From: a virus
Direction: 5' to 3' (one strand)
IMG/VR virus record: IMGVR_UViG_3300020200_000050
Coordinates: 1-46,602 of that record
DNA: 46,602 nt
Part shown: piece after piece, positions 6,353-45,077 of the stretch
Numbering within the stretch: position 1 is the stretch's first letter
Layout: the number at the start of each line of letters is the position of its first letter
Position numbers and translations under genes: made by a program
Notes under the pieces: model-generated
Told to the model about the DNA's origin: nothing
Seen by the model: the letters and a program-made list of their open reading frames with translations, nothing else
Databases searched by the model: none

Positions 6353-6359
6353 TATTTAT
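6353..6359 (+). promoter_or_regulatory. TATTTAT late-type promoter box
   Basis: AATATTTATTGTAT precedes the ATG at 6365 with 5 bases between, in the divergent gap after the glycosyltransferase start. Confidence 0.45.
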
Positions 6360-6364
6360 TGTAT

Positions 6365-6541
6365 ATGAAGTTACTTAAAACAATATCAAAATTAGTCGTA
6401 GAATCACAACGTGCTTATGATGAAGCATGTGAAAAAGGTGTTAGTGAAAAAGAATTGGATAGACTTGAAAAAAATTTAAGAGAGACTAGACTATTAATGA
6501 AACTATACGATAATGTGGGTAAAACTAACCCTAAAGACTAA
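6365..6541 (+). CDS. Small helical protein with leader-like N-terminus
   Basis: A 58-residue protein, starting at the ATG at 6365 rather than the upstream TTG at 6359. It begins MKLLKTISKLVVESQ, very like the start of the gene at 30957 (MKITSLLSKLIVEQ); both have SKL[I/V]VE after a short basic helix. The rest is a charged helix (SEKELDRLEKNLRETRLLMK). A TATTTAT box lies just upstream. Packaging in the capsid as a small internal protein is inferred from the leader. It is a lone plus-strand gene within the fibre block. Confidence 0.6.
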   Translation: MKLLKTISKLVVESQRAYDEACEKGVSEKELDRLEKNLRETRLLMKLYDNVGKTNPKD

Positions 6542-6655
6542 TCAAATCCCCTTTAACAATAAACCACATTTAGTATTTGTCCTAATGTCGTAAGGACCTG
6601 TACCTGTCGCACCAGTTAAGTAATAAGTGTTGGTGTTGGAGTTATAGGAAGTGAG
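6542..6655 (-). other. Open -1 frame beyond the stop of the small fibre gene
   Basis: On the minus strand the -1 frame is open from 6655 to the TGA at 6544-6542, through the Pro/Thr codons and on for about 24 codons reading YYLTGATGTGPYDIRTNTKC and further. It ends one base from the convergent gene's stop at 6541, which is how real genes pack in this genome. Frameshifting, a one-base mutation or a sequencing error would each join it to the gene at 6616-6885. Confidence 0.45.
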
Positions 6656-6885
6656 TTACATGGTACAGTTTTAAAAGTAATACATCCTTCTGAAAGAGAA
6701 ACCAATTTGATACCTACTTCAGGAATATTATTAAAAATTGAAGGTAATGGTGAAATAACAACAGGAGGCCCCACACTTGTATTTATAGTTGCGACTAATA
6801 CACATTGTCCACCATATGAATTACAAACATAAACTTCATATGGAAAATTAGAACCTATTATAGATGTAATATCGATACCATTCAT
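6616..6885 (-). CDS. Small Cys-containing structural protein, paralogue of 8542-8760
   Basis: An 89-residue protein that aligns with the 72-residue product at 8542-8760: both have an Ile/Asp-rich start, a VY[V/L]C motif, then CV, TIN, a Pro-rich turn and a Cys near the end. It ends PITPTPTLIT at a TAA, but the -1 frame continues as coding-like sequence to 6542, so the C-terminus may be wrong or variable. It follows the large fibre gene at 6892 by six bases and is probably co-transcribed. Function is unknown; a small fibre-associated beta protein is inferred. Confidence 0.55.
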   Translation of the reverse strand: MNGIDITSIIGSNFPYEVYVCNSYGGQCVLVATINTSVGPPVVISPLPSIFNNIPEVGIKLVSLSEGCITFKTVPCNSLPITPTPTLIT

Positions 6886-6891
6886 AAATTA

Positions 6892-8541
6892 CTAATTATA
6901 TGATAAACAAGTTTCACAATCAGTATATAATGTTGGAGTCACAACACTTGAAAAATAGTTACCTGTGTAGTTTATAATATTTGAACCTGGTGGAAGTGAA
7001 GGATAGTTCGGGTAAACCCCATAAAAAGTCCAACAGTTACCATCATTACCATAGAACGTTTTAGATGAATCTAATGAAGGTCCTGGAAAATTTTGAATTA
7101 AGTATTGATTTATTGTTTTTTTTGTATTTTTACCAAGTTCTTTAGAGGATGAAAACTCAACTGTAGTTTTTTTACAATTAAGGTAAACGTAAAATTGTTG
7201 AGGTAATGAAGGAGTTGGTGTCAAAGTAGGAGTTGGTGTTAAAGTAGGAGTTGGTGTCATACTAGGTGTTGGACTCGGTTCAGGATAACATTCAACACAC
7301 TGACCTAAATTGAAGTAACCCACAGGACCTTCAGTTAAAATAATTTCAGTCACACCAATACTTTCAGGATTAACACCTACATATGAAATACATTTAGAAA
7401 CACCATCGACAGTTGCTTTGAATATCATATATTCCTCTAAAGTATCACCTGATGGTGTAGGTACTGACATAGTGGTGTAATACATCATACCATTAATACA
7501 ATCTTGGAATTGTTTACTAACAGGACAAGAAAGGTCACCCTCAATTGTTGTGAAAAAAACATCACCTGTTATGTTACAAGGTCTATTTATTATTCTTGTT
7601 GGTGTTGGAGTGGGTGTTGGTGTTGGTGTTGAGGTTGGAGTAATGCCAACAATAACCGCATCTACATCTATGTTAGCACATGTTAAGTTAGTTGCGGTAG
7701 GGGTAGGGGTAGGTGTTAAAGTTGACGTTGGAGTTGGAGTAGGACTAATAGAAACATCACAATCAAAAATTGCGGTAAAATCAAAAACCTCACAATAAGT
7801 TGTTGTTGTAGTAGTTGGAGGGCAAACACCTGAAGAGAAAAATTCTTCACATAAATCAGGACATTCTGAAAAACAAGGTGACTTACCTGATAGGAGACAC
7901 ATACCACCTAAAGATGTTGATAAACACCATTGTTTGTTACCTATTGAATAGTAAATATAATAGTTGTTTGAACTTCCCGTCCAATATAGTTGTGAATTAT
8001 AAGTACCCGCACTGTAGTAAGTACTGTCAAAAATTGTATCGGTTCCACTTATACAATATATTTCCTCACACACAGGAGGGACTGAACAAGGGAATGAAGT
8101 AATACAAGAGTTACAGTCAAGATATGAAGTACCCAACCTAAAATTATCTGAGGAAAAAATTGTGTAATAAGGTAAAGCTGATGTATAACCTGAATTAACA
8201 ATTCGATAACAACCATTTAATTCATTGTTAGGGTTTGAAGATGATATTATATCTGTAAAATAAAGAGTATCGCCTAACCCAAAATTTACTGAATCCCTTC
8301 GAGAAATTGCAATGGCGAATGTTTCGCCACTACAACAACCCGAAAATTCTAAAACAGGAATTTCTTTTTCTATTAAGGTTACTACAATATCTACTGATGG
8401 TGATGTTATAGTTCCCGCCGCGTTAATGTAATAATATAATGAAGGTTCTAGGTCAAAAACTTTAACCGAAGATAAAATATCTGTGAATGTAAAACCAACA
8501 TAAGTTGATGGTCCCGTATTTTGAATTTGATATATCGGCAT
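6892..8541 (-). CDS. Large Cys-rich fibre/adhesin protein with Pro/Thr linkers
   Basis: A 549-residue protein built of Cys-rich beta modules joined by Pro/Thr tracts (TPTPTPTSTLTPTPTPT, TPTSTPTPTPTPTPT, TPSMTPTPTLTPTPT). One module (YCISG ... GTYNSQLYWTGS ... QWCLSTSLGG ... CPDLCEE) resembles residues 122-222 of the 3842-5272 protein, suggesting module shuffling. There is a run of Thr (PPTTTTTTYC) as in the 842-residue protein. No signal peptide and no enzyme motif are visible. It sits in an operon with two small paralogous proteins on either side. A virion surface fibre is the best inference. Confidence 0.62.
   Translation of the reverse strand: MPIYQIQNTGPSTYVGFTFTDILSSVKVFDLEPSLYYYINAAGTITSPSVDIVVTLIEKEIPVLEFSGCCSGETFAIAISRRDSVNFGLGDTLYFTDIISSSNPNNELNGCYRIVNSGYTSALPYYTIFSSDNFRLGTSYLDCNSCITSFPCSVPPVCEEIYCISGTDTIFDSTYYSAGTYNSQLYWTGSSNNYYIYYSIGNKQWCLSTSLGGMCLLSGKSPCFSECPDLCEEFFSSGVCPPTTTTTTYCEVFDFTAIFDCDVSISPTPTPTSTLTPTPTPTATNLTCANIDVDAVIVGITPTSTPTPTPTPTPTRIINRPCNITGDVFFTTIEGDLSCPVSKQFQDCINGMMYYTTMSVPTPSGDTLEEYMIFKATVDGVSKCISYVGVNPESIGVTEIILTEGPVGYFNLGQCVECYPEPSPTPSMTPTPTLTPTPTLTPTPSLPQQFYVYLNCKKTTVEFSSSKELGKNTKKTINQYLIQNFPGPSLDSSKTFYGNDGNCWTFYGVYPNYPSLPPGSNIINYTGNYFSSVVTPTLYTDCETCLSYN
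7203..7752 (-). repeat. Three Pro/Thr repeat tracts in the 549-residue fibre gene
   Basis: Tracts at about 7203-7278, 7594-7644 and 7694-7752 are imperfect tandem repeats of GGAGTTGGTGT-like units on the plus strand; the first has an 18-base unit repeated nearly exactly. On the coding strand they give alternating Pro-Thr linkers. These repeats are candidate recombination or slippage sites. Confidence 0.65.
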
Positions 8542-8760
8542 TTATAATAAACTTAAATTTTTAATTATTTCACAATTATTATCGTCAACTATTTTTAAAT
8601 TGTAACTAGTTTGACCGTCAACGGATGGTGGTACAAAAAAATCATATGGAAAAGAATTTATCGTATCGATATAAACACACATAGTAATTGGGTTATCACA
8701 TAGATAAACATTACACGGGGTTACCCCTGTCACATCATTTATTGTTATTTGTGTTGGCAT
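8542..8760 (-). CDS. Small Cys-containing structural protein
   Basis: A 72-residue protein (MPTQITINDVTGVTPCNVY) with three further Cys and a Pro-rich centre, paralogous to the product at 6616-6885. Its stop abuts the ATG of the large fibre gene at 8541, so the two are translationally linked. A TATTTAT box lies 10 bases before its start, making it the first gene of the minus-strand fibre operon. Function is unknown. Confidence 0.6.
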   Translation of the reverse strand: MPTQITINDVTGVTPCNVYLCDNPITMCVYIDTINSFPYDFFVPPSVDGQTSYNLKIVDDNNCEIIKNLSLL

Positions 8761-8770
8761 TCTTTTTTAG

Positions 8771-8777
8771 ATAAATA
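8771..8777 (-). promoter_or_regulatory. TATTTAT late-type promoter box for the fibre operon
   Basis: The minus strand reads TATATTTATCTAAAAAAG before the ATG at 8760. It lies in the 78-base divergent gap between the fibre operon and the primase operon; no clear host-type promoter for the primase was found in this gap. Confidence 0.45.
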
Positions 8778-8838
8778 TAATGACCCCTGAAAACTTGTGA
8801 AGATTGATTATTTTAATATTATATCTTATTTTTAAGTG

Positions 8839-9738
8839 ATGTCAGACGATGCAGAAATTTTAGTAGAATTATTACGAGAAGTCCTTGGTGATGAAAAACA
8901 ACATTACGAAAATAAAGGACAGATTGCTTTTGACTGCCCCGTTTGTGATGATGGTAGGAATAAAGGAAATCTTGAAATTAATTATTTTTCACATGTGTAT
9001 AAATGTTGGGCATGTGGAGATGTAAACGATACTCACGGACCTTTAGGTAAGTTGTTCGACACATATGGTAATAAGAAACAAAAAAAAGTTTATAAAGTTC
9101 TACAACCTGAAGAGTTTAAACCTAAAGAAAAGAGAGTTAAAAAATTAACATTACCACCAAATTTCACAACTTTTAAAGATTCCTCCCCTGTATATCCCGT
9201 TAGAAAACAGGCATATAATTATCTTAAAAATAGAGGTATTGACGATGAAATAATTGAAAAATATGGTATTGGATTTTGTGATACGGGAACACATGCTAGT
9301 AGAATAATTGTACCATCCTACAACAAAAACGGGGAGTTAAATTATTACATCGCAAGAAGTTGGATACCAAACACTAAATCAAAATACAAAAACCCTGAAG
9401 CCGAAAAAGACAAAATAATCTTCAACGAGAATTTAATAGATTGGAAAAAAGATATTTACTTAGTTGAAGGTGTTTTTGATGGTTTCTTTTTACCAAATAG
9501 CGTCCCGATGTTAGGTAAACACATGTCACAACTTTTATTTGAAACCATTTATAAAAAATGTAAAAAAAATATAATAATTTCTTTAGATGGTGATGCGTGG
9601 GATGATGCGGTTAAACTATATAACGATTTAAATGGTGGTGAATTATATGGTAGAATTAAAATAGTTAAATTACCAAAAGATAAAGATGTCTGTGATTTAA
9701 GAGGACAAATAAATGAGTATTATTACAATATGAGATGA
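8839..9738 (+). CDS. DNA primase (DnaG/gp61-like)
   Basis: A 299-residue primase. An N-terminal zinc ribbon (CPVC at 33-36, CWAC at 56-59) binds template DNA. A TOPRIM catalytic domain follows: YLVEGVFDGF (Glu210, Asp214), IISLDGDAWD (Asp250, Asp252) and KDKDVCDL as the third acidic motif. It lacks the long C-terminal helicase-interaction region of bacterial DnaG, as in T4-type phages. It makes RNA primers for lagging-strand synthesis. The ATG at 8839 is preferred to the GTG just before it. It overlaps the next gene by four bases (ATGA). Confidence 0.9.
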   Translation: MSDDAEILVELLREVLGDEKQHYENKGQIAFDCPVCDDGRNKGNLEINYFSHVYKCWACGDVNDTHGPLGKLFDTYGNKKQKKVYKVLQPEEFKPKEKRVKKLTLPPNFTTFKDSSPVYPVRKQAYNYLKNRGIDDEIIEKYGIGFCDTGTHASRIIVPSYNKNGELNYYIARSWIPNTKSKYKNPEAEKDKIIFNENLIDWKKDIYLVEGVFDGFFLPNSVPMLGKHMSQLLFETIYKKCKKNIIISLDGDAWDDAVKLYNDLNGGELYGRIKIVKLPKDKDVCDLRGQINEYYYNMR

Positions 9739-10592: not shown

Positions 10593-10614
10593 ACTAAATA
10601 AATTATATTTTAAC

Positions 10615-11571: not shown

Positions 11572-11578
11572 TATTTAT
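11572..11578 (+). promoter_or_regulatory. TATTTAT late-type promoter box
   Basis: GATATATTTATTAATA lies 19 bases before the ATG at 11598, in an AT-rich gap of 49 bases between two otherwise tightly packed genes. Confidence 0.5.
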
Positions 11579-11597: not shown

Positions 11598-11915
11598 ATG
11601 AAAAGAATTATAAGATTAACTGAATCAGACCTTGCAAGAATTGTAAAGAGAGTAATTATGGAACAAGACACAACCGTTTATATGATTGATGGTCTATCTT
11701 GGACTCACATTGGTACAGATACGATTGGTCCAGAATATAATTACAATGGAAAATTTGCCGACGTTCAAATGAAAAACGTACCTAAACAAGGTGAAAAAGC
11801 ATTATCTGATAAAACTTGGACTGTTGGGTGTAACGGGAGTGTAGTACCTGCGCCGACATCAGGGAAAGATAAATTACAAAAAATAGCATTAAAAAGCCTT
11901 TCTTGTAAATCATAA
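11598..11915 (+). CDS. Putative virion-cargo protein with LTESD leader
   Basis: A 105-residue protein. The start at 11598 gives an N-terminal amphipathic segment, RLTESDLARIVKRVIMEQ, ending in Ile-Met-Glu before Gln; the longer frame from 11550 adds a hydrophobic stretch that is really promoter DNA. The remainder is beta-rich with two Cys and no recognised family. A nearly identical segment (KLTESEIVNLIENIILEK) lies inside the product of 24946. The leader and the TATTTAT box suggest late expression and capsid targeting. Confidence 0.62.
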   Translation: MKRIIRLTESDLARIVKRVIMEQDTTVYMIDGLSWTHIGTDTIGPEYNYNGKFADVQMKNVPKQGEKALSDKTWTVGCNGSVVPAPTSGKDKLQKIALKSLSCKS

Positions 11916-19767: not shown

Positions 19768-20568
19768 ATGAAGGAAAAAAACTCAGGGATTCCTATTAAT
19801 CAGGAAGAAATACAACATTATCTGAAAGATATAAGAAAGATTAAGGTTATGACACCTGAAAGGGAGAGAGAATTAGCTAAACTAATGAAGTCAGGTAATT
19901 TGACATCTCGACAAGTAGAATCTATTCACAAAGAATTACTTGAAGGTAATCTTAGATTTGTGATTACAGTTGCAAAACAGTATCAAAATCAAGGTCTTGA
20001 TTTTCCTGACTTAATTGCTGAAGGTAATCTTGGGTTGATGAAAGCAATCAAAAATTTTGATTGGGGTAAAGACCTTAGATTTATCTCATATGCGGTTTGG
20101 TGGGTAAAACAATCTATTTTACAATCATTGAATGATAATGCAAGGACAATCAGACTCCCTGTAAATGTAATCCAAGATTTACATCGAGCTAAGAAAGAAG
20201 TTGAAAGTAACGGAGGTAGTTTAGACGACAAATTTTTAAATCTACCATCAACCATTGATTTGGATATGAACATCAACGATGAATTCGACACTCTATTGGA
20301 CATAATCAAGAATGATGATGCAGATATGCCTGACGGAGTTTTCAATAGTAAAGATATGTTAAAAACCCAACTTATGGTATTACTTAATAGTTTAGATGAA
20401 AGAGAACGAGTTATTATCGAGGATTACTTTGGTTTTACAGGGACCCCTAGAACTCTTGAAGAAATTGGTGGTGATTTTAAACTTACCAAAGAAAGGGTTA
20501 GACAGATTAAAGAAAAAGCCCTCAGAAAATTGAGGAACGATGGGTCGATATTATTCGACTATATGTAA
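19768..20568 (+). CDS. Sigma-70 family RNA polymerase sigma factor (RpoD-like)
   Basis: A 266-residue sigma factor. Region 1.2 (IQHYLKDIRKIKVMTPERE), region 2 (NLRFVITVAKQYQNQGLDFP, LIAEGNLGLMKAIKNFD, RFISYAVWWVKQSIL), a short region 3 and region 4 with the helix-turn-helix TLEEIGGDFKLTKERVRQIK are all seen. It is much closer to the compact primary sigma of Bacteroidota than to T4 gp55. It should redirect host RNA polymerase. Its operon is read from a host-type promoter and closed by a strong terminator. Confidence 0.92.
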   Translation: MKEKNSGIPINQEEIQHYLKDIRKIKVMTPERERELAKLMKSGNLTSRQVESIHKELLEGNLRFVITVAKQYQNQGLDFPDLIAEGNLGLMKAIKNFDWGKDLRFISYAVWWVKQSILQSLNDNARTIRLPVNVIQDLHRAKKEVESNGGSLDDKFLNLPSTIDLDMNINDEFDTLLDIIKNDDADMPDGVFNSKDMLKTQLMVLLNSLDERERVIIEDYFGFTGTPRTLEEIGGDFKLTKERVRQIKEKALRKLRNDGSILFDYM

Positions 20569-24924: not shown

Positions 24925-24931
24925 TATTTAT
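24925..24931 (+). promoter_or_regulatory. TATTTAT late-type promoter box
   Basis: AGATATTTATTAAATA lies 14 bases before the ATG at 24946, in the gap between two presumed virion genes. Confidence 0.5.
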
Positions 24932-24945: not shown

Positions 24946-26514
24946 ATGAAAAAAGTTAATAATCAATACATCGATAGATTAGTGAAAAAATTCATTAACG
25001 AGAATATACACGAAAAGGCCGATGATATCATGTCACAAATTAATGAATTAGGTGGTATGGAAGATAACCACCCTAAGTTTGGTAAACTTAATATTGCTAA
25101 GATGTCTGACAAAGAACTTGAATATTTATTAAAACAACCTATGGATGACATTGAGATTGAAAGAGATGACGAAGAAGAATATGATGAAGAACCATTATAT
25201 GAGGTTGAATTGAGTGAATCAGATGTTTGTGAATGTGGTTCAGGAACTATGGTTTCTGAAGGTATGTGTATGGAATGTGGTTTACCTAAAATGGATGAAG
25301 GTATTTATGATGTTGCAGAACCATTTGGTGATGAAGAACAATCTTTCGATTATATTGAGGAATATGACGATATTGATTTTGATTTTGAAGAGGATTTTGA
25401 GGAAGAAAAAGATGATGAAACCATGAGAAGTCGTTTCTTTGATAAAGAAGATGAAGAAAATGAATGGGACTCTGAAGAGGAAGAAGAGGAGAATTCCGCA
25501 TTTTGTAAATATCAAAAACAAATGTTTGGACCTAATGATGAAAGATATAGAGAGAAATGTACAGGTAAGTCAGCAAATAGAGACTTGGCTTCTATGAAGA
25601 TGAATATGAATGAAAAACTTCATGGTAGACAAAGAAACCTTGATAAAAACCATAATGGTAGAATCGATGCTGAAGACTTTAGAATGTTAAGAAAAGGAAA
25701 CAAAAGACACATGGATGAAACTGACATGGAAGAAGGTAATGCTTTCACAGGGGCTTTAGATAATGCAAGAGAGGAAGGAAGAAAATCATTCAAAGTCGGT
25801 GGTAAAACTCTACCTGTTAGAAAAGAATCGGTTAAACTTACTGAGTCAGAAATAGTTAATTTAATTGAAAATATTATATTGGAAAAAGAATCTAAAGGTT
25901 TGAAGAATTTAGCAAAACCTAAAGGAATGGCCGAATATGAAAGAGCTTATAAAGGTTCGGGTAAAGAAAATAAAGATTATCTTGCATCGGTAACTAAAAA
26001 GATGAAAGACTATTTAAAAGATGGTTCGGAAGGAGAATATGAAACAAACCCTAAGAATTTCCCTATGAGTAATGGAGACTTGAAAAAAAGTAAAATTAAA
26101 GGGTTTAACATGAGTGATGAAGGACAAGAGTTTATCGATGATTACCTAAGACCAGGTCAAGAAAACATTAGTTACGATGAAATACACCCAAGTGATGAGT
26201 GGATGGATGAAATCATTGCGGGGTCTTCTAAAACAGGTAACAGTGATGAGTATGCTAATTCAGTTAAAACTGATGTTAATAAAAAAATACTTAAAAAACA
26301 AAAAGCACATAAATTAGATATCTTATCTAAAAAAGCGGCTAATAAATCACCACAACCTATCTTTGCGACAAAAGATAAGAAACCTGGATATTCAGATGGT
26401 GATGGTGTTAGATTGACCACTACCGAAAGTAACAATCCTAAAAAAGAAAAAATATTAAATGAAGAATTTAATAGGATAAGTGAACTTATGAAATATAATC
26501 GTAACACTCAATAA
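24946..26514 (+). CDS. Acidic modular protein: leader, zinc knuckle, EF-hand, LTES motif
   Basis: A 522-residue acidic protein. The start MKKVNNQYIDRLVKKFINEN is a basic helix ending in Ile-Asn-Glu. A four-Cys knuckle (CECGSGTMVSEGMCMECG, residues 90-107) follows, then a very acidic stretch, then an EF-hand calcium loop (DKNHNGRIDAED, about 229-240) and a GNAFTGALDNAREEG motif. A second leader-like segment, KLTESEIVNLIENIILEK, is near residue 303. The C-terminal part is helical and charged. It may be a scaffold/core or packaged protein; no family was recognised. Confidence 0.58.
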   Translation: MKKVNNQYIDRLVKKFINENIHEKADDIMSQINELGGMEDNHPKFGKLNIAKMSDKELEYLLKQPMDDIEIERDDEEEYDEEPLYEVELSESDVCECGSGTMVSEGMCMECGLPKMDEGIYDVAEPFGDEEQSFDYIEEYDDIDFDFEEDFEEEKDDETMRSRFFDKEDEENEWDSEEEEEENSAFCKYQKQMFGPNDERYREKCTGKSANRDLASMKMNMNEKLHGRQRNLDKNHNGRIDAEDFRMLRKGNKRHMDETDMEEGNAFTGALDNAREEGRKSFKVGGKTLPVRKESVKLTESEIVNLIENIILEKESKGLKNLAKPKGMAEYERAYKGSGKENKDYLASVTKKMKDYLKDGSEGEYETNPKNFPMSNGDLKKSKIKGFNMSDEGQEFIDDYLRPGQENISYDEIHPSDEWMDEIIAGSSKTGNSDEYANSVKTDVNKKILKKQKAHKLDILSKKAANKSPQPIFATKDKKPGYSDGDGVRLTTTESNNPKKEKILNEEFNRISELMKYNRNTQ

Positions 26515-28919: not shown

Positions 28920-29855
28920 ATGAATCAGGATAATTTCTATCAGACACTTGGAGTTAATGAAAATGCGACACAAGATGAAATAAAAAAGGCATATCGTAAA
29001 TTAGCGGTTGAACATCATCCAGATAAAGGAGGGTCGGAAGAAACTTTTAAAAAAATATCTGAAGCTTATGATACTTTGGGAGACCAAAATAAAAGGACTC
29101 AGTATGATAACAGTAGACGTAATCCTTTTGGTGGGATGGGAGGTTCATCTTTTGATGATTTATTCGGTACGTTTTACACTAATAGAAAAAGAACCGTTCC
29201 TGATAAAATTATCGATATTGAAATAGGGACTTTAGAATCATTTAATTCATCAGATAAAGTAATTAACTACCAAAGGAAACACGCTTGTGATAGTTGTAAT
29301 GGGTCTGGTGGTGATAAGATTACTTGTGGTACTTGTAATGGTATTGGGTTTACGGTTGTTACGATGGGTACAGGTTTATTTACACAACAATTTAGACAAC
29401 CTTGCAACACATGTAGAGGTATGGGAGAAGTGTTTAAAACCAAATGTGGAACTTGTCATGGAGAAGGGACTAAATCAGATTTTGAAAGTTTGAAAATAAA
29501 ATTACCACATGGTGTTGATGATGGACAATTTTTTAAAATGCAAGGTAAGGGAGATTATCACCATGGAATGTATGGTAATTTAGTTATACGAGTTAAAGTT
29601 ATTCCTGAAGAAAATTTCGAAAAAGTTGGAAACGATTTAATTTATAATGCGTTCTTAACTTTAAATGATTTAAATGAAATTGGGTTTAATTTACCTCACC
29701 CTTCAGGTGATTTGTTTATTAAGTTACCCGAAGATTTCGACACGTCTAAACCCTTGAGAGTTAAATCCAAAGGATTTAGAGGTCAAAATGGTAATGGTGA
29801 CCTTTTCATTAAATTATTTGTTAAATATAAAAGAGAATTAAATATTAGCAAATAA
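28920..29855 (+). CDS. dnaJ: DnaJ co-chaperone
   Basis: A 311-residue type I DnaJ. The J domain has HPD at 33-35; a short Gly/Phe region (NPFGGMGG) follows. All four zinc-finger repeats are seen ([32 protein letters not shown]), then two substrate-binding beta domains ([31 protein letters not shown]). It is shorter than bacterial DnaJ (about 375), mainly from trimmed linkers. It stimulates host DnaK; a phage DnaK is not in the window. A role in folding virion proteins or in replication is likely. Confidence 0.9.
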
Positions 29856-30083: not shown

Positions 30084-30926
30084 ATGTTATCTTATATTGG
30101 TGGAAAAAGTAAAATAGGAAAGTGGATAGTCCCTTTCTATGATAAAAATATGGAGACATACCTTGAGACTTTTGGAGGGATGTTTTGGTGTTTTTTCAAT
30201 ATGGATTTGAAGGGATACCCGAATCTAAATAAAGTTGTCTATAATGACTTTAACCCTCTAAATTACAACCTATTCAAGTGTGTTCAAAACCCACAGGAAT
30301 TGTTAAGAGCAATTAACTCAATTGAGTGTCAACAACAAGGTATTGATATTACACCATTACATCTAAAAGAACAATTCATCAGGTTTCAGACTGAAGTTTT
30401 TAATGAAGGTTTCAGCGTAGAACCTGGTGATTATGAAACCGCTGCAAAATATGTTTATATTCTAACACAAGTTTTTAGTGGGTCTAAACCTGAAACATCA
30501 TCATATATAGACCTTAAGGGTAAGTATAAATCAAAATATTTAACATTTAGAGATAAATTATCTAAACCTGATTGGATTGACCACTTCTTAAAAATAACGG
30601 ATGTTGAGAATATGGATTTTGTGGATGTGATTAAAAAGTATGATTCTGAATCGACTTATGTTTATTTAGACCCTCCTTATTGGAAAACTGAGAATTATTA
30701 TTCTAATCATGATTTTGATAGAGACGACCATGAAAGAATAGCAAATACTTTAAAAGAGATTAAAGGTAAATTCTCATTATCTTATTATGATTTCCCTTTA
30801 TTATCCGAATGGTTCCCTAAAAATGAATACATATGGGAAACAAAACAATTTGCAAAAGCCGCGGCTGCAAAGAAAGGTGAAAAACAAAATATGGGAGAGG
30901 AAATATTAATTATGAATTATTTATAA
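30084..30926 (+). CDS. DNA adenine methylase (Dam family, D12 class)
   Basis: A 280-residue adenine-N6 methyltransferase. The AdoMet motif FxGxG-like YIGGKSKIG is at the start, ETFGGMFWCF follows, and the catalytic DPPY is at 196-199 (LDPPYWKTENYY). The order (motif I before IV) is that of the Dam/alpha class. Target is likely GATC-like but cannot be read from sequence. No restriction partner is adjacent, so it probably protects phage DNA or times replication. Confidence 0.88.
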   Translation: MLSYIGGKSKIGKWIVPFYDKNMETYLETFGGMFWCFFNMDLKGYPNLNKVVYNDFNPLNYNLFKCVQNPQELLRAINSIECQQQGIDITPLHLKEQFIRFQTEVFNEGFSVEPGDYETAAKYVYILTQVFSGSKPETSSYIDLKGKYKSKYLTFRDKLSKPDWIDHFLKITDVENMDFVDVIKKYDSESTYVYLDPPYWKTENYYSNHDFDRDDHERIANTLKEIKGKFSLSYYDFPLLSEWFPKNEYIWETKQFAKAAAAKKGEKQNMGEEILIMNYL

Positions 30927-30934
30927 AGACTGAA

Positions 30935-30941
30935 TATTTAT
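30935..30941 (+). promoter_or_regulatory. TATTTAT late-type promoter box
   Basis: GAATATTTATTATAAA lies 15 bases before the ATG at 30957, just after the methylase stop. Confidence 0.5.
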
Positions 30942-30956: not shown

Positions 30957-32342
30957 ATGAAAATTACTTCACTTTTATCTAAACTTATTGTTGAACAAAC
31001 TAGGTTCCAAGTAGTTTACGACAAATATACCAAGCCAAATCCTAAAGCATTGGAAAAGAATAAGAAGGCTCAAGGTATTATGGATTTTGACACTTTAAAA
31101 AATATTATATTTGCGGACCCAACAACTAAAGCACCTGAAAATTTTAATATTGAAGGAGCATCAGTTAATGATATGGAATCCGTTAAAGTTGGTAAATATG
31201 TACAATGGTTACTCAAAAATTTCGCCAGTCCTAAACAAAATGAATTAGACCTTCCTGAAAATTTACCATTAGATTTTGCAAGTCGTGAGTTTAAAAACGC
31301 TATTGCTGAATATCGAAGATTATATATGGAAGATTTATATAAGACGACTGACGATTTAAAAAAGTTTGAAAGAGCAAAACAATACCTACCTCAAGACCAA
31401 AGAGATATTAACAAGTTCACACCAAGAACTTTGTTTGACACCATTAAAGATTTCCAAATACCTGAAAAGAAAAGAGCTGAATTAGAGAAAAAAGAAGCAA
31501 AAAAATCAAGAGAAGGATTTAATCATGCTGGTGGAGAGATTTTATTTGAAGGACCTAATTGGACTTTAATTAAAGTTGAAGACCGAGGCCAAGTTGGTAG
31601 AGACGCGGCTATTTGGTATGGAGGTTTCCATGAGTATGACCAAGGAGAATCAAGATGGTGTACGTCATCACCAGGTTTAACATATTTCAATGGATATATT
31701 AAAGATGGACCATTATATGTAGTTTTCCCAAATGATGATAAAGGTCAAGTTGGTAAAAAAACAGGTTTACCGTTGGAAAGATATCAATTCCATTTCCCAT
31801 CTAGCCAATTTATGGATAGACATGATAGAGGGATTAATTTGGTTGAGTATCTGAATGGACCGATGTCAGAACTTAAAGAATTCTTTAAACCTGAGTTTGC
31901 AAAAGGTTTAGTAACTAAGGGAACTAATAAAGTTGAAATCAACTATCCTGAAAGTTCTGCTGGTAAATTCGTAGCATTATATGGATTTGATGAGTTATTT
32001 GAAAGTTTACCTGACAATATTGAACACTTATTAATCAATAATAAATCTAAAGAAGACATTGCTTTAGACGTACCTGAATCACTTGGTAGATTTACACAAT
32101 GTACGGCATTACTTTTCCAAAACTTAATTAAGAGTTTACCTGAAAGTATTGGTAAAATGAAAAATCTTAATTTCTTAGCAATACCTGGTAACAAACATTT
32201 AGTGAGTTTACCTGAGTCAATTGCAGATATTGAAGGTTTGGCATTCATTAACTTAAAGGAAAGTAATCCTAACGTAAAAATACCTGAAAGACTACAAGAA
32301 AAGTTAAGTGATGAAGGTAACGGGTTTTATTATGTAGGTTAA
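30957..32342 (+). CDS. Putative virion-cargo protein with WCT domain and leucine-rich repeats
   Basis: A 461-residue protein. It starts MKITSLLSKLIVEQ, a basic/hydrophobic leader ending in Ile-Val-Glu before Gln. Residues about 190-300 form a domain with AIWYGGFHEYDQGESRWCTS and PLYVVFPNDDKG, a WCT pattern seen in phage proteins of unknown role. Residues 349-446 are leucine-rich repeats (SLPESIGKMKNLNFLAIPGN, SLPESIADIEGLAFINL). LRRs usually bind other proteins, so a capsid-delivered effector that binds a host target is possible. Function is unknown. Confidence 0.6.
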   Translation: MKITSLLSKLIVEQTRFQVVYDKYTKPNPKALEKNKKAQGIMDFDTLKNIIFADPTTKAPENFNIEGASVNDMESVKVGKYVQWLLKNFASPKQNELDLPENLPLDFASREFKNAIAEYRRLYMEDLYKTTDDLKKFERAKQYLPQDQRDINKFTPRTLFDTIKDFQIPEKKRAELEKKEAKKSREGFNHAGGEILFEGPNWTLIKVEDRGQVGRDAAIWYGGFHEYDQGESRWCTSSPGLTYFNGYIKDGPLYVVFPNDDKGQVGKKTGLPLERYQFHFPSSQFMDRHDRGINLVEYLNGPMSELKEFFKPEFAKGLVTKGTNKVEINYPESSAGKFVALYGFDELFESLPDNIEHLLINNKSKEDIALDVPESLGRFTQCTALLFQNLIKSLPESIGKMKNLNFLAIPGNKHLVSLPESIADIEGLAFINLKESNPNVKIPERLQEKLSDEGNGFYYVG

Positions 32343-36870: not shown

Positions 36871-36919
36871 TCACCCAAATTGATTTAATAGTAAACAATA
36901 CCTTATTTATTTTTTAGGG

Positions 36920-36926
36920 TATTTAT
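36920..36926 (+). promoter_or_regulatory. TATTTAT late-type promoter box
   Basis: GGGTATTTATAATT lies 4 bases before the ATG at 36931, so the transcript would be nearly leaderless if this is a -10 element. The gene starting at 45405 has the identical arrangement. Confidence 0.5.
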
Positions 36927-36930: not shown

Positions 36931-38322
36931 ATGAATCGTAGAATTTTTTTATCGGAAAATAAAATGAATAGATTGTTAGGGTTGATAAGAGAACAATCCG
37001 AGGAAGAATATTATAAAATATCCCCTGAAGAATATAAAGAACTTTTAAAACTTTCAGGTTACCATGGACAAGGGATTAGTAGATTACCTAAGTTTCAGGG
37101 TAAACCATTATGGATAACGGGAGATTTAGATGTTTCAAATACACCCATGGACTCATTGGGTAATGTAAAATATGTTGATGGTAGTCTTAGTATTAGTAGG
37201 ACCAAAATCTCTAATATTGATGGTATTACAGTTAGAAAACATGTTTGGGATAGTGATTCCCCAATAGAAGCAAAAAGATTAGCGGCGGAACTTAGAGAAA
37301 AAAGGTCTGAGGGTAATCGTAGACGACTTGGTAATATATGGGACCCTGAAGATACTGACGATGAAGGTATAAAAGCTAACGCACTTTTTAAATTTTTAGT
37401 TGATAACGGAGATGTTGAAGTTTTGAATAATGAAGATAAGGAAAAATTAAAAGAGTTGAATACTGAACTTGAAAGACTTGAAAACGAAGAAGAATATACT
37501 GAGGAAATTGAGGAAAGAATATCTGAAATTGAAGATGAGATATCAGACCTTGGTGAAGATGAAGGAGATGTTTACGATTTAAATCCAATGAGATGGACGC
37601 ATTATGGATTAACAACCTTTGAGGTTTTATTACCAGGGTTTAAAAATAATGAATACACTGTTGGTACTTCGGAAGAGATGGATGACGCAGCTTTAAAATA
37701 TGCTAAAAATTATATTGATGACGTAGGAATGGATGGATTCAGAAACCATTTTGTTGAAAATTATATAGATGAGGATTATCTAAGAGATTATATAAGGGAA
37801 TGGTATGAAGATGATATTTGGCAAAATCCTGAAGTTTATTTTAATGACGATGATTTTGAATTAACTGCAGAACAAGAAAGAAGAATTAGTAAACTTGAAA
37901 ATTATATTTCCGAACTTGAGGATTATATTTCAGACCTTGAAGAAAAACAAAATGAGGCTTACGATGAATTAGAGGACCCTGAAGAATATGACAAAAAGTA
38001 TTACGAAATCCAAAAAATGATTGACGAAGTTGAGGAAAAAAAGGATAAGGCTCAAGATGAGTTAGATAGTATTGAACCAGATGATGAACCAAGTCAAGAT
38101 ATGGTAGATGATAAATTGGAAGGTATTGTAAATAGATACATGAGAGACCCTATGAATTTTATTAAAGTACATAGTTTAAATTTGGAAAATTTTGTGGATG
38201 AGGATGAATTAGCTCAAGGATTGGTTGACGAGGATGGATGGGGAGTTATGAATGGAAATGATGGTACTTATGATGAAGTAGAATTTGATGGGGAAATTTA
38301 CTATATTATGAAAGTGAGTTAA
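36931..38322 (+). CDS. Putative virion-cargo protein with LRR-like segment, acidic
   Basis: A 463-residue acidic protein. The leader IFLSENKMNRLLGLIREQ ends in Ile-Arg-Glu before Gln, as in the 30957 and 11598 products. Residues about 45-95 have an LRR-like ladder (LWITGDLDVSNTPMDSLGNV, YVDGSLSISRTKISNIDG). Long acidic coiled coils follow (ERLENEEEYTEEIEERISEI; LENYISELEDYISDLEEK). The C-terminus is acidic and ends EIYYIMKVS. A capsid-delivered protein with a host-binding LRR is inferred. Confidence 0.58.
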   Translation: MNRRIFLSENKMNRLLGLIREQSEEEYYKISPEEYKELLKLSGYHGQGISRLPKFQGKPLWITGDLDVSNTPMDSLGNVKYVDGSLSISRTKISNIDGITVRKHVWDSDSPIEAKRLAAELREKRSEGNRRRLGNIWDPEDTDDEGIKANALFKFLVDNGDVEVLNNEDKEKLKELNTELERLENEEEYTEEIEERISEIEDEISDLGEDEGDVYDLNPMRWTHYGLTTFEVLLPGFKNNEYTVGTSEEMDDAALKYAKNYIDDVGMDGFRNHFVENYIDEDYLRDYIREWYEDDIWQNPEVYFNDDDFELTAEQERRISKLENYISELEDYISDLEEKQNEAYDELEDPEEYDKKYYEIQKMIDEVEEKKDKAQDELDSIEPDDEPSQDMVDDKLEGIVNRYMRDPMNFIKVHSLNLENFVDEDELAQGLVDEDGWGVMNGNDGTYDEVEFDGEIYYIMKVS

Positions 38323-39515: not shown

Positions 39516-40631
39516 ATGACAAAAATAGAGTATATTTGGCTTGATGGTTATACACCAGAACCAAATTTGAGAAGTAAAATTAAAGTAAGTAATATTGACG
39601 TTACAGATTTCACATCAATCCCTGAATGGAATTTTGACGGTTCTTCTACCTTACAGGCTGAAGGTGATAAATCAGATTGTATTCTAAAACCTGTGAGAAT
39701 GTATCGTGAAGTAGGTTGTGTTGATAGGGTTTATGTATTATGTGAAGTAATGAATTCTGACGGAACACCGCATGAAACAAATCAAAGAGCTAAATTGGGT
39801 GAGGAAGATAGAGACATGTGGTTTGGGTTTGAACAAGAGTACTTTATACGAGAATTGGGAGGACAAATATTAGGACATACTAAAGGTTTTATTGAACCAC
39901 AAGGTAAATATTATTGTGGTGTTGGACATAATGTAATAGGTAGAAATATTGTTGAAGAACATATGGATTTATGTTTAAGTATGGGTATAAATATAACAGG
40001 TGTAAATGCTGAAGTTGCTTTAGGTCAATGGGAATACCAAGTATTCTCACAAGGTAAATTGAAAGCTGGGGACGACCTATGGATGTCAAGATATTTAATG
40101 GAAAAACTTTCAGAAAAATACGGTTATTGGATTGAATATCACCCTAAACCATTGAGAATCGGAGAATGGAACGGGTCAGGGCTCCACACTAATTTTTCAA
40201 CACACAAAATGAGAAATGAGGGTGGGGAAAAGTATTTCAATTCTTTATTTAATGCTTTAGAATCACGAAGAGATACTCACATTGAAGTTTATGGTTCCGA
40301 TAATGATTTAAGGTTAACAGGTAAATATGAAACACAATCAATTAATAAATTTAGTTGGGGTGTAAGTGATAGAGGAGCCTCAATACGAGTACCATTATCA
40401 ACCGCTAAAGAATGGAAAGGTTATATTGAAGATAGAAGACCTGCATCAAATGCAAATCCTTACGAAATTATAAAAGTTATTTCTGACACCATTGATATGG
40501 CAAATGAACTTGATGAAACAGTTCAAAATATGTTTAGTAATGTAAGTGTTAAAAATTTTGATGAGGTTGCAAAGAAATATAATGGTATTCTTACAAGTGA
40601 GGAATTATTGAACGAATATAAAGAAGATTAA
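39516..40631 (+). CDS. Glutamine synthetase, type II (eukaryotic-like)
   Basis: A 371-residue GSII enzyme. The beta-Grasp part has EWNFDGSST (37-45); the catalytic part has FEQEYF (metal Glu106 and Glu108), GVNAEVALGQWEYQVF (162-177), GSGLHTNFST (220-229), SDRGASIRVP and EDRRPASNANPY (305-316). All key residues appear intact and the length suits GSII. It would make glutamine from glutamate, ammonia and ATP, feeding nucleotide synthesis in the infected cell. The type II form is uncommon in phages. It is followed two bases later by a DUF3310 gene. Confidence 0.9.
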   Translation: MTKIEYIWLDGYTPEPNLRSKIKVSNIDVTDFTSIPEWNFDGSSTLQAEGDKSDCILKPVRMYREVGCVDRVYVLCEVMNSDGTPHETNQRAKLGEEDRDMWFGFEQEYFIRELGGQILGHTKGFIEPQGKYYCGVGHNVIGRNIVEEHMDLCLSMGINITGVNAEVALGQWEYQVFSQGKLKAGDDLWMSRYLMEKLSEKYGYWIEYHPKPLRIGEWNGSGLHTNFSTHKMRNEGGEKYFNSLFNALESRRDTHIEVYGSDNDLRLTGKYETQSINKFSWGVSDRGASIRVPLSTAKEWKGYIEDRRPASNANPYEIIKVISDTIDMANELDETVQNMFSNVSVKNFDEVAKKYNGILTSEELLNEYKED

Positions 40632-40632
40632 A

Positions 40633-41590: not shown

Positions 41591-41594
41591 GAAT

Positions 41595-42446
41595 ATGATA
41601 GAAACTGAAAAAATAATAAATGGTGACTGTGTTGAGGTTATGAAAACATTACCAGAATCATCAGTCGACCTTGTTGTTACTAGTTGTCCTTATGGTGTTG
41701 GTATTGATTATGATGTTCATAATGATGATGTTGAATTTGAAGATTATAAAATCTTTAGTCGTGATTGGTTATCTCAGGTATATCGGGTATTAAAAGACGA
41801 TGGAAGAATTGCGTTAAACATTCCCTACGAAATTAACAGACAAAAGAAAGGTGGGAGAATATTTTTCGTATCTGAGATGTGGCAAATTATGAAAGAGATT
41901 GGATATGGTTTCTTCGGTATTGTTGACCTTGAAGAAGAGTCCCCACATAGAAGTAAAACCACTGCATGGGGTTCATGGATGTCACCATCAAGTCCTTATA
42001 TTTATAACCCAAAAGAATGTGTTATTTTAGCTTATAAAAAATACCACATTAAAAAAGTTAAAGGTGAACCACAATGGAAAGGTCAAATAACCGATGTTGA
42101 ACAACCTGACGGAACTACAAAAAAGAAAGTTATATATGAAGAAACAGATAAAAAAGAATTTATTCAACTTGTGTATGGTCAGTGGAATTATTTTGCTGAC
42201 ACTAGGTCACTCACCAAGGCTAGTTTCTCCATGGACATACCAACCAAAGCGATTAAAATATTGTCCTACAAGAACGATATAGTTTTGGACCCGTTTGTTG
42301 GTAGTGGAACTAGTTTAGTAGCTGCTCAAATACTTGATAGAAGATGGTTAGGTATTGAATTGTCACCCGACTATTGTAAAGTAGCTGAATCAAGAGTTAA
42401 TTTATTTAAGACGTTAGAACAAATAAAAGAAATCCCACAATTATAA
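41595..42446 (+). CDS. DNA methyltransferase (N6-adenine/N4-cytosine, beta-class)
   Basis: A 283-residue methyltransferase. The catalytic motif is TSCPYG (29-34) near the N-terminus and the AdoMet motif DPFVGSGTSLVAAQ is near the C-terminus, the beta-class order. RWLGIELSPDYC follows, as is typical. ATG at 41595 (MIETEKIINGD) is chosen; the longer frame from 41556 overlaps the small upstream frame. No restriction gene is near. The terminator hairpin overlaps its last codons. Confidence 0.88.
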   Translation: MIETEKIINGDCVEVMKTLPESSVDLVVTSCPYGVGIDYDVHNDDVEFEDYKIFSRDWLSQVYRVLKDDGRIALNIPYEINRQKKGGRIFFVSEMWQIMKEIGYGFFGIVDLEEESPHRSKTTAWGSWMSPSSPYIYNPKECVILAYKKYHIKKVKGEPQWKGQITDVEQPDGTTKKKVIYEETDKKEFIQLVYGQWNYFADTRSLTKASFSMDIPTKAIKILSYKNDIVLDPFVGSGTSLVAAQILDRRWLGIELSPDYCKVAESRVNLFKTLEQIKEIPQL

Positions 42447-42457
42447 GTGGGATTTTT
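42431..42457 (+). terminator. Intrinsic terminator containing the methylase stop codon
   Basis: AATCCCAC (42431-42438) pairs with GTGGGATT (42447-42454), followed by T. The TAA stop (42444-42446) sits in the loop, so the left arm is coding sequence. Confidence 0.82.
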
Positions 42458-42469
42458 GATTTATGTAGG

Positions 42470-42476
42470 TATTTAT
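42470..42476 (+). promoter_or_regulatory. TATTTAT late-type promoter box
   Basis: AGGTATTTATATTAAA lies 17 bases before the ATG at 42494, directly after the methylase terminator, which makes a new transcript start here likely. Confidence 0.52.
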
Positions 42477-42493
42477 ATTAAAAACATTTTCTA

Positions 42494-43663
42494 ATGAATA
42501 ATGCTTATATAAATGAATCTGAATTTAGAGAGAAGTTAGTCCAAATTTATAAAGAGGAACAACTTAACTATATTAATGAAAAATGGGAAAAATTATCAGG
42601 TAAAGATAGAACTTTTGTTATTGAAACTTTAAAGTCTCTTTTTCCTGAAAAATCATATCTTTTGAAAGAATCAAGATGGTATAACACTGTAGGTGATATT
42701 GTCGGTATTTTCGACCCTACAGGTATAGTGGACCTTGTAAACGGTATAAGTTATTGGAGACAAGGGGATAAATTATTCGCAATATTATCTTGGATATCGG
42801 TTTTACCTGTGTTAGGTGATTTAATAGCTAAACCAGTTGTTGGTTCTTTAAAACTTGGGGGTGATGCGGTTAAAGCATTTAGAACTGCGTCAGCAGTTGG
42901 AGACGCGGCTAAAGTTGCAGAAACTGCAAAAGCTGCGGGAGGACCAATATCAAAATTAGTATCCTCAACACCTAAATGGGGTACTACTTTATTAAGTAAA
43001 CTTGGTACAAGTGGGAAAGCGTCGGGCTCAATGATGAAAGGAGTCACAGATTACGTTAAAGTTTTTGACGACGCTGGTAAGTTAATGAAAAACAAGCAAA
43101 AAGTTAAAAGTGCGGTCGAATTTAGCAAGGACGCGATAAAACTTGGTAAAGGATTTAAAGATGCTAGTAAGATAGGAAAAGGAGTTTCAGGGGCTAAAAC
43201 ATTGGCAGCAGCTGAAAAGGCACAGTTAGGTGTTTTAACAAAACAAAACCCTGTTAGAATATTCAGAGATTATGGTACGGGTAAAAATAGTTGGTTATCG
43301 TTTATGAAATCTGATGCTAGTTTATGGTCTAAATTACAAGCGGGAGTACCAAGAATTTTCGGAGGAAATCCCGCTACCAGGTCACTTATGAGAAGAACTA
43401 AGTTTTATGCTGGTTTTTTAGATTGGTTAGGGGTTGGTAATTTTGTAGGGCCTGAAGAAATTGAAAATGCCGTGGGAGGTGCTGACGAAGCAAATAAATT
43501 ATATTCAGAATACGCTCAATTACCCCAAGCCCAAAGACTTTGGGCTGATGATATGGGAGGTAATGTGGCTCCTCCACCATCAACTATCATGTCACCACCA
43601 ACACAATCATCAAGCGGAGGAGGTATTGACCCCGTGTCTATATTAACAAAATTATTTATTTAA
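42494..43663 (+). CDS. Hydrophobic DPTG protein, candidate virion-delivered membrane protein
   Basis: A 389-residue protein. The charged N-terminal helix (NESEFREKLVQIYKEEQ) resembles the leader class. Residues 65-120 hold a hydrophobic hairpin (VGDIVGIFDPTGIVDLVNGI, LFAILSWISVLPVLGDLIAK), a pattern like the pre-toxin regions of secreted toxins. An Ala/Lys/Gly-rich stretch follows (AAKVAETAKAAGGP), then a basic region and a Pro/Ser-rich end. It may be ejected and insert in membranes; this is inference. It is followed by the DHH gene after seven bases. Confidence 0.55.
   Translation: MNNAYINESEFREKLVQIYKEEQLNYINEKWEKLSGKDRTFVIETLKSLFPEKSYLLKESRWYNTVGDIVGIFDPTGIVDLVNGISYWRQGDKLFAILSWISVLPVLGDLIAKPVVGSLKLGGDAVKAFRTASAVGDAAKVAETAKAAGGPISKLVSSTPKWGTTLLSKLGTSGKASGSMMKGVTDYVKVFDDAGKLMKNKQKVKSAVEFSKDAIKLGKGFKDASKIGKGVSGAKTLAAAEKAQLGVLTKQNPVRIFRDYGTGKNSWLSFMKSDASLWSKLQAGVPRIFGGNPATRSLMRRTKFYAGFLDWLGVGNFVGPEEIENAVGGADEANKLYSEYAQLPQAQRLWADDMGGNVAPPPSTIMSPPTQSSSGGGIDPVSILTKLFI
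43653..43659 (+). promoter_or_regulatory. TATTTAT box within the end of the upstream gene
   Basis: AATTATTTATTTAAC overlaps the last codons of the preceding gene and lies 11 bases before the GTG at 43671. A chance match in Leu-Phe-Ile codons cannot be excluded. Confidence 0.3.
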
Positions 43664-43670
43664 CTATATA

Positions 43671-45077
43671 GTGAAAAGACTTATCAAAGAGAGTGGTTTA
43701 AGGGACATTAGAAAATTAGCTAGAAGATACCCTAAAGCCGAAATATACTTTCACCAAGATTTAGATGGAGTTGCCACGGCAATCGCTATGAAACATTACT
43801 TAGAAAGTAATGGTATTAATGTTATTGATACTCACGTAATCCAATATGGGGATAAAGAATTTGCCGTAAAAAAAAATGATGCGACTGGTGATGTGATGCC
43901 TGTTTTAGTGGATTTCGCCCATGGTAAACCAATGTTTGTTATACATACAGACCACCATGATAGACAAGCAGGTGCTGAAGACACCAAGTCAACATCTTTT
44001 AGACAATCAAGGTCAAATGTTGAAACCATTTCACAAGTAGTTTCACCAAAAGAAATCTTCTCAAGTGACGACTTATTGTTAATATCTACTGTGGATTCGG
44101 CAAATTATGCGGCTAATAAAATAAGTGTTGACGAGGTTATCAATTATCTTTTCAGATTAGATAAAGAAAAAGGATTACAAAAAAATAAAATGGCTTTAGG
44201 GTTAGTTGCAAATAAATTATTATTGGCGTTTAAAAACAAACCAGGTTTCCTTGAAGAACTTGTAATGACCACAACACCATCAATCATGAACCTACTTCAA
44301 AACATAAAAAGAATTATGGTTGAAAAGGGTTACGTAGGGCAAGAACAGTTACAAAAAAACAAAGAAGGATATATCCAACAGATGAAATCACACCCTAATG
44401 TTAAAGTTATGGGTAATGTTATCGTACAATACGGTGGTGGTAGTACAATGGTACCAGGTTCTTATGATAGGTACACACCATTTAAAAATAATCCTGAAGC
44501 TGATTTTTTAGTTATCGCTTGGCCTTTAGGTTTAGTACAAGCGTCTTGCAACCCATTTAAGGAAGATAGAGAATTGAAAGGTGTTAATTTAGGTGAGATG
44601 GGTCAAGAAGTTTTATCTAAATGGGAGTCACAACTTAAAAGAAGAGATATACCATTATCAACTATAAAATGGGTTTCTGAATTTTCTAAAGAATTTGGTG
44701 GACATTCCGTTGGTTTTACTTTTAAAGATTTTGTTGCTATCTACGGAAATGATTTTAAAACCATGGAAAATGGTAAACAAAAATTAAAGGATATTGGAGA
44801 AATGATGAACCAACCATTTACATCTTTAAGTGAAGAAGAAAAAGAGATGTTGGATAATATTACTGTAACCGCTTGGGATGTTATTCAGGCCAATAGTGGA
44901 GGACACAAGTGTATTACGAATATTTCAGGTTTAAATTATATGGGTAGAAGTAAAAGACCACCTGCCAACAAATACAAATATAACCCTGATTCTGACGACG
45001 CTCCATATGTAAAATTTACCAAAATGGTTCAGAGTGAATTTGTTAGAGTTTTGGAGGATAAAATTAAAAATGGATAG
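43671..45077 (+). CDS. DHH-family phosphoesterase
   Basis: A 468-residue protein. The DHH-domain motifs are present: FHQDLDGVATA (Asp30, Asp32), VLVDFAHG (Asp81) and HTDHHDR (94-96). A GGHSVGF motif and a late GGHKCITNISG resemble the DHHA1 nucleic-acid-binding part. Related enzymes are RecJ exonuclease and oligoribonucleases. It starts with GTG (43671), since the next Met is at residue 40; its first residues (MKRLIKESG) end a short basic segment at Ile-Lys-Glu. Degradation of nucleic acids early after entry is possible. Confidence 0.78.
   Translation: MKRLIKESGLRDIRKLARRYPKAEIYFHQDLDGVATAIAMKHYLESNGINVIDTHVIQYGDKEFAVKKNDATGDVMPVLVDFAHGKPMFVIHTDHHDRQAGAEDTKSTSFRQSRSNVETISQVVSPKEIFSSDDLLLISTVDSANYAANKISVDEVINYLFRLDKEKGLQKNKMALGLVANKLLLAFKNKPGFLEELVMTTTPSIMNLLQNIKRIMVEKGYVGQEQLQKNKEGYIQQMKSHPNVKVMGNVIVQYGGGSTMVPGSYDRYTPFKNNPEADFLVIAWPLGLVQASCNPFKEDRELKGVNLGEMGQEVLSKWESQLKRRDIPLSTIKWVSEFSKEFGGHSVGFTFKDFVAIYGNDFKTMENGKQKLKDIGEMMNQPFTSLSEEEKEMLDNITVTAWDVIQANSGGHKCITNISGLNYMGRSKRPPANKYKYNPDSDDAPYVKFTKMVQSEFVRVLEDKIKNG

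Follow-up and report, generated by a model that had tools for sequence, protein, structure and literature searches.

Does a short leader at the N-terminus of several otherwise unlike proteins of a large lake phage direct them into the phage head? This question is raised by the window analysed here, the entire IMG/VR record IMGVR_UViG_3300020200_000050 (46,602 bases; GC content 30%), in which seven genes, chosen as a set by eye and named by their start coordinates (6365, 11598, 24946, 30957, 36931, 42494 and 43671), encode products beginning with a leader of 7-22 residues ending in hydrophobic-x-Glu. With a probability of roughly 0.73, these leaders were judged to be capsid-targeting propeptides of the T4 kind, with a lineage-specific sequence and more carriers than in T4. 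As read from the sequences, the leaders are shared and swapped within a clade of related phages, the Glu and the hydrophobic residue of the putative cut site (P1 and P3, with P2 as the middle residue) are conserved, a protease of the right family is encoded in near relatives and an upstream box is common to leader genes and several head genes. Injected phage proteins disarm host defences and are hard to find because their bodies have no sequence in common. A marking leader makes finding them a text search and, if the reading is true, the injected arsenal would become listable from sequence alone, the leader being moreover a first clue for many phage genes of no assigned role.

Sharing and swapping of the leaders

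The sharing of N-termini was assessed on 860 clade proteins (window and contigs G001, G002, G003, G017 and G018) that were grouped on residues 26 to end into 425 families, gene starts beyond the window's own open reading frame list being those of a simple gene caller. On residues 2-25, 83 of 357,847 between-family pairs scored at least 46. The same score was reached by 0 of 249,159 pairs for an interior segment (residues 61-84) and by 9 of 357,847 for the C-terminal 24 residues, and four composition-preserving shuffles gave 1, 1, 0 and 0 such pairs. At a score of at least 40, the largest N-terminal cluster comprises 48 proteins of 29 families and the second one 13 proteins of 10 families, with some looser members. 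Among the seven window leaders, the bar of 46 was passed only by 11598 (84), which belongs to the 29-family cluster, and by 42494 (59), whose partner is a 61-residue protein that is possibly a piece of its own family. The 6365-30957 pair scored 36, 24946 scored 35 and 43671 scored 29, and the leader of 36931 was left unscored because the gene caller began this gene at 36964. A short propeptide on unrelated proteins is therefore found for the clade as a whole and, for single window leaders, clearly only with 11598 and with doubt with 42494.

Eight leaders, all from contig G032, were used to build a weight matrix, which was scanned over the other contigs at a cut-off of at least 16 bits. It returned 21 N-terminal matches (window 1, G002 1, G003 3, G017 2, G018 3, G033 11), five distinct matches away from N-termini and one match in 299,253 positions of shuffled sequence; no N-terminal match was obtained in G001 or G035, and none among the 926 genes of the 642-kb phage LR756502.1 or the 207 of Flavobacterium phage immuto. 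The 11598 leader reached 55.9 bits with this matrix. Once homologous families were removed, cluster matches of at least 42 were carried by 17/328 genes in G032, 16/248 in G033, 8/114 in G035 and 2/66 in the window, the corresponding controls being, in the same order, 2, 1, 0 and 0 for shuffled sequences and 1, 0, 0 and 0 for protein interiors. The window and contig G035 (65,729 bases) come from one and the same phage (31/31 one-kb blocks anchored, lowest identity 99.7%), and G035 extends about 35 kb rightward past the window, where seven more N-termini, MKYIITESKLKDIV and MRNLIKNILKEE among them, match leaders of non-homologous families at 42 or above, one of the seven (41987) being an apparent chance match. 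With T4 as control for shared N-termini, IPII/IPIII was recovered with a score of 54, and homing endonucleases outscored it in this run, in which homologous families were left in; IPI was absent among the 12 pairs listed. A direct search of annotated phages with the 24-residue leader gave no match.

Leaders of different types are also found ahead of one and the same body. This is the case among orthologues of 36931 and for G032_130110 and G002_2082, which have the body SDRYMFFSNLEQMRRQ in common behind two different leader types. Likewise, the DHH homologue of LR756502.1 (39% identity) begins with MLRKYGQFINE↓E and that of the window with MKRLIKE↓S (the arrow marks the putative cut), and a HAD-like protein, so named by eye, begins with MDILRFDQFIRE↓S in LR756502.1 and with MLKNKITE↓G, MRVKSINE↓G or MRKKYILE↓G in the window clade. 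In LR756502.1 (L125-L157), 125 of 926 called proteins, belonging to 115 families, form one single-linkage cluster at a score of at least 42 (45 of the 125 members were viewed), with 431 of 422,595 N-terminal pairs versus 9 of 282,235 interior ones. Its leaders are of the MKHLKxYKxFE type, for example MKHLKTYKLFE↓S, and resemble the T4 tag, to which 26/920 genes score at least 22 (shuffled 3), compared with 2/328 in G032 (shuffled 0) and 0/248 in G033 (shuffled 1). If the proteins of this cluster are packaged, virion cargo would account for more than one in ten of this phage's proteins. Immuto, a cultivated relative that infects Flavobacterium sp. LMO8 and encodes an S77 protease itself, has two small N-terminal clusters of its own, with four and three proteins, and its leaders include MENFDLKKFLVENKL and MKKSQLRQIIK.

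Putative cut site, upstream box and prohead protease

All leaders that the first-pass annotation had listed for 6365, 11598, 24946, 30957, 36931 and 43671 were found in the sequence; 42494, which it had regarded as a weaker member, is on sequence grounds a strong one, with [LIFV]-x-E↓[STN] at residue 7 or 8 in 42/42 orthologue rows and L, I, F or V at P3. These rows, like those of the other families, are not independent because near copies of one genome are included. In the DHH-like family (43671), P1 is Glu and P3 is Ile or Leu in 83/83 rows, with six different residues (K, S, N, T, V and A) occurring at P2 and leader lengths of 6, 7, 8 or 12. In the LRR-like family (30957), P3 Ile and P1 Glu are present in 52/52 rows (51 by pattern, one by eye; a 53rd locus, spanning the C-terminal part only, is left out of the count), with L, V or T at P2. 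For 36931, 30 rows were found and four short ones dropped; 25 of the 26 remaining were anchored, and in all 25 a hydrophobic-x-Glu lies 4-7 residues ahead of the conserved body, seven further relatives being left out of the count. Start 36931 was preferred over the alternative 36964, picked by the simple gene caller, because orthologues with long leaders speak for it. A gp21-type ending, with hydrophobic P3 and Glu P1, is consequently found in the DHH-like, LRR-like, 42494 and 36931 families. For 24946, I/L/V-x-E is retained in 6/6 genomes (five orthologues) with leaders varying in length and sequence; for 6365, VSE and VTE stand at the equivalent place in both orthologues found (n=2), and 11598 has few orthologues for such a comparison. 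Within the long leader type, a cut could fall at either of two places, LTE↓S or I-x-E↓Q.

The claim that a TATTTAT box precedes every leader gene was borne out, since the box lies at most 50 bp upstream in 7/7 of them, 42494 included, versus 7/59 other window genes (p 4e-6). Over the contigs taken together, a box was present within 50 bp of the start in 42/68 genes with a leader by pattern versus 314/1381 others (p 2.6e-11). As a string the box is not rare in the window (42 found versus 42.25 expected), and rarity was rejected as a feature of the signal. It is also present upstream of portal, protease, scaffold, neck, sheath, tube and tape-measure genes, and absent ahead of the ssb, UvsX, helicase, NrdA, SbcC and glutamine synthetase genes. 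By its appearance the box looks like a late promoter. What by eye is a primary-type factor of the sigma-70 family is encoded at 19768-20568 of the window and is a candidate reader of the box.

The search for a prohead protease suggested by the first-pass annotation succeeded in relatives (G017, G018, G032 and G033) and failed on the window contig itself. G002 and the window have in common the DHH-like and LRR-like genes plus other families, and extension from the left end of G002 reached the head cluster in G017, which overlaps G002 (shared genes mostly at 87-99% protein identity), and in G018, which covers part of the region. Both contigs encode TerL, portal, bS21 on the opposite strand, protease, a scaffold-like protein and a capsid protein. 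Pfam matches in G017 are to portal (1.6e-75), Gp23 (6.3e-74), bS21 (4.6e-7) and the S77 protease (PF03420; 9.8e-25, 87.6 bits versus a cut-off of 27). The S77 protease is above the Pfam cut-off in all four relatives, and in G032 (322,372 bases; 1.5e-25) and G033 (240,759 bases; 1.7e-27) the protease, leader genes and orthologues of window genes lie together on one contig each. Capsid proteins of the clade start with MGALLE↓SGLVGN and contain ASHLINE↓A, and its proteases start with GLLVE, GILVE or GILIE, all of these being sites by motif and position only. The place of ASHLINE↓A is presumably that of the T4 gp23 cut, SFLTE↓A.

The two megaphages LR756502.1 and LR745206.1 give an S77 match that falls short of the Pfam cut-off; with PHROGs, LR756502.1 hits the head maturation protease (6.1e-28). 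The prohead protease of both is about 700 residues long (L136:5272-7371; LR745206.1 198546-200669) and carries a tract of repeated YSEYIAENLDKNI-like units with an I/L-A-E site in each, like a built-in scaffold. A megaphage alignment was rejected as a probe for the clade capsid gene, the 80 loci kept being 64-78% like the megaphage protein.

Table 1. Leaders, internal leader copy and TATTTAT boxes in the window
Feature	Coordinates	Strand	Product or remark
Leader MKLLKTISKLVVE, then S	6365..6403	+	58-residue product, 6365-6541
Canonical long leader MKRIIRLTESDLARIVKRVIME, then Q	11598..11663	+	105-residue product, 11598-11915
Leader MKKVNNQYIDRLVKKFINE, then N	24946..25002	+	522-residue acidic product, 24946-26514
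Internal leader copy in 24946 product	25825..25890	+	residues 294-315 as scored; 29.3 bits
Leader MKITSLLSKLIVE, then Q	30957..30995	+	461-residue LRR-like product, 30957-32342
Leader MNRRIFLSENKMNRLLGLIRE, then Q	36931..36993	+	463-residue product, 36931-38322
Leader MNNAYINE, then S	42494..42517	+	389-residue product, 42494-43663
Leader MKRLIKE (GTG start), then S	43671..43691	+	468-residue DHH-like product, 43671-45077
TATTTAT box, late-promoter-like	6353..6359	+	ahead of 6365
TATTTAT box	11572..11578	+	
TATTTAT box	24925..24931	+	
Two TATTTAT boxes (30918-30924, 30935-30941)	30918..30941	+	
Two TATTTAT boxes (36904-36910, 36920-36926)	36904..36926	+	
TATTTAT box	42470..42476	+	
TATTTAT box	43653..43659	+	

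Proposed cargo and competing explanations

According to the propeptide reading, proteins would be made late in infection with a short, mostly basic, helix-prone N-terminus by which they would dock on the core of the prohead. Cleavage after hydrophobic-x-Glu by the S77 (gp21-family) prohead protease would follow, and the matured proteins would stay with the DNA inside the head and pass with it into the next host cell. The T4-like scheme of the first-pass annotation is partly supported, as far as the S77 protease in the clade, the gp21-type site, the leaders on unrelated proteins and the box common with several head genes are concerned.

Other observations weigh against it. On the window contig no head genes and no prohead protease were found, nor was there an S77 match on G001-G015, G034 and G035 (all partial contigs) or a Gp23 match on G001-G010, and a repeated protease search on ten of G001-G015, with T4 as working control, gave none; the protease and capsid were consequently assigned from relatives. 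No TATTTAT box stands ahead of the major capsid protein, TerL and gp6-like genes, and the per-contig box excess is significant only in G032 and G033 (window borderline, p 0.049), with no significant excess in the other five contigs. Hydrophobic-x-Glu with the Glu at residues 7-24 is present in 18/59 other window genes, so the motif alone proves nothing and was rejected as evidence by itself. Five of the seven window leaders are without a strong N-terminal match outside their own family, and the likeness of the window leaders to the T4 tag MKTYQEFIAE, perhaps a non-defining trait, is slight (scores of 8-18). A blind test of 133 families for columns with a constant Glu, a constant hydrophobic P3 and at least three different P2 residues found 12/2584 N-terminal versus 32/33,541 other columns (p 4e-5). 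This is a modest result, and three or more of the 12 N-terminal columns belong to ordinary domains and not to leaders (DnaJ, glutaredoxin and the G001_158215 family). Finally, leader copies also occur inside proteins (24946 family) and partly at a C-terminus (G018_25394), and the element may for this reason be a docking helix.

The bodies behind the leaders were characterised for two families, with a mean column identity of 85% for the DHH-like and 65% for the LRR-like body. In the DHH-like product the motif residues are retained in 16/16 rows, and the Pfam DHH score is 20.4 bits, under the cut-off of 28.1. A fold search returned RecJ, GdpP, PggH and PAP-phosphatase DHH proteins (best E 1.8e-5) as weak matches with TM-scores of about 0.2-0.4, the mean predicted local distance difference test (pLDDT) value of the model being 66, and a PDB profile search with the DHH alignment gave none. 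For the LRR-like product, the Pfam LRR score is also under the cut-off and the best fold match (E 4.9e-4) covers only part of the protein. Because of these low TM-scores and Pfam scores below cut-offs, only superfamily likeness is claimed. From sequence and model, the DHH-like product is likely a nuclease or nucleotide phosphodiesterase and, as a guess, might act against nucleotide-signal defences; equally as a guess, the cargo at large, which includes the DHH-like phosphoesterase, the LRR-like protein and many small proteins, could consist of host-takeover or counter-defence proteins. In the models pLDDT is below 50 at residues 1-10 (DHH-like) and 1-13 (LRR-like), that is up to or just beyond the proposed cut, and low in other stretches too. 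Of the twenty products with a canonical leader in G032 and G033, ten were compared with Pfam, and none matched above a cut-off. At L078 2633-4027, a DHH-like gene reads with one stop codon.

The leader proteins might alternatively be prohead core or scaffold, tagged and cut, and mostly degraded or expelled in maturation instead of injected. The 24946 product suits such a role: it is acidic (24% D/E), [IVL]-x-E occurs in it at 14 places and a copy of the leader (KLTESEIVNLIENIILEK, residues 297-314) lies in its interior. On these features it may itself belong to the core or be scaffold-like instead of being cargo. The DHH-like and LRR-like bodies, in contrast, are well-conserved folded domains unlike scaffold, and leaders are found on 29 families, making this explanation unlikely for the set. 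Internal copies of the 24946 type are also seen at other positions in the orthologues G001_128599 and G002_167680, and G018_25394 ends with a leader-like half.

A smaller chance still was given to an uncleaved amphipathic helix docking at the replication site, RNA polymerase or membrane, with no link to the head. A leader helix is indeed predicted, with low confidence, in the DHH-like and LRR-like models, and both the copies elsewhere in proteins and the unboxed major capsid protein and TerL genes would agree with it. However, P1 Glu and hydrophobic P3 are constant while P2, length and leader type vary, as would be the case at a protease site, and the box is common to leader genes and other head genes. 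An origin of the shared 5' ends at the DNA level, through either a translation-start element or a recent duplication of promoter and first codons, is very improbable, for although leader genes lie in neighbouring runs (e.g. G033 14-27 kb) and have the upstream box in common, 28 long-leader copies show synonymous differences (pS 0.61) in excess of nonsynonymous ones (pN 0.27; pN/pS 0.44), so that selection acts on the leader peptide, and the 40 nt ahead of them average 42% identity.

Beyond the propeptide reading of the window clade, a broader view was given an even chance, namely that large phages of the T4 kind use general, swappable zip-code leaders on a large share of their small variable proteins and that the capsid delivers dozens of effectors, each lineage having a leader matched to its own core and protease. 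The share of genes concerned would be at least 5-6% in G032 and G033, next to the 125/926 of LR756502.1.

Among other genes of the window, 39516-40631, 28920-29855 and 45987-46418 encode by eye glutamine synthetase, DnaJ-like and SmpB-like products, whose homologues in LR756502.1 are 44%, 31% and 47% identical, respectively.

Comparison with known systems

The closest system is that of T4. According to PMC9026906, T4 proteins are directed to the core by propeptides 10-19 residues long (7 in Alt), which gp21 removes; many of these proteins are ejected with the DNA, and the processing of IPIII depends on residues 8 and 10 of its tag, which are P3 and P1. The leaders resemble those of IPI, IPII, IPIII (MKTYQEFIAE↓A) and Alt in being short N-terminal propeptides on unrelated proteins, with a hydrophobic-x-Glu end and an S77 protease, and they have more carriers, the 17 of 328 genes in G032 and 16 of 248 in G033 standing against four named in T4. 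They differ from the T4 tag in sequence, being RLTESDLxRIVKRVIxE or short K-rich forms, and the cargo differs from T4 cargo. By eye, the short leaders MKNLITKILKE↓S and MKRLIKE↓S are like the starts of T4 gp24 and gp22, which we take to be cut at MAKINELLRE↓S and MLKEQLIAE↓A; unlike the leader proteins, gp24 and gp22 are structural or scaffold head proteins and not cargo.

According to PMC5694885, the heads of phiKZ-type phages and SPN3US hold many internal proteins, and from some of these the prohead protease removes a propeptide at A-x-E or S-x-E. Several of these propeptides exceed 100 residues and the motif is different, whereas the window leaders have 7-22 residues, with I, L, F or V at P3 in orthologues. 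In MuF-domain prophage toxins, one of them from a Bacteroides prophage, the domain is proposed to direct an antibacterial protein to the capsid (PMC11699363); by this description MuF is a folded capsid-component domain, distinct from a short cleaved leader. Among the capsid-targeting titles listed, none beyond this MuF paper concerned Bacteroidetes or metagenomic phages, most subscription journals being outside the search, and no paper pairing huge phages with capsid targeting was found in the same mostly subscription-free literature, which does not imply absence in print.

The head cluster itself, with bS21 on the opposite strand, TerL, portal, protease and major capsid protein, is arranged as in the bS21-encoding freshwater Bacteroidetes phages of lakes reported in PMC9723584, whose main text is without the terms leader, internal protein and injected. 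Because of this arrangement a Bacteroidetes host is likely. The leader might be used as a tag by which foreign proteins are brought into the heads of Bacteroidetes phages, and it raises the evolutionary question of how leader, core and protease change jointly between lineages.

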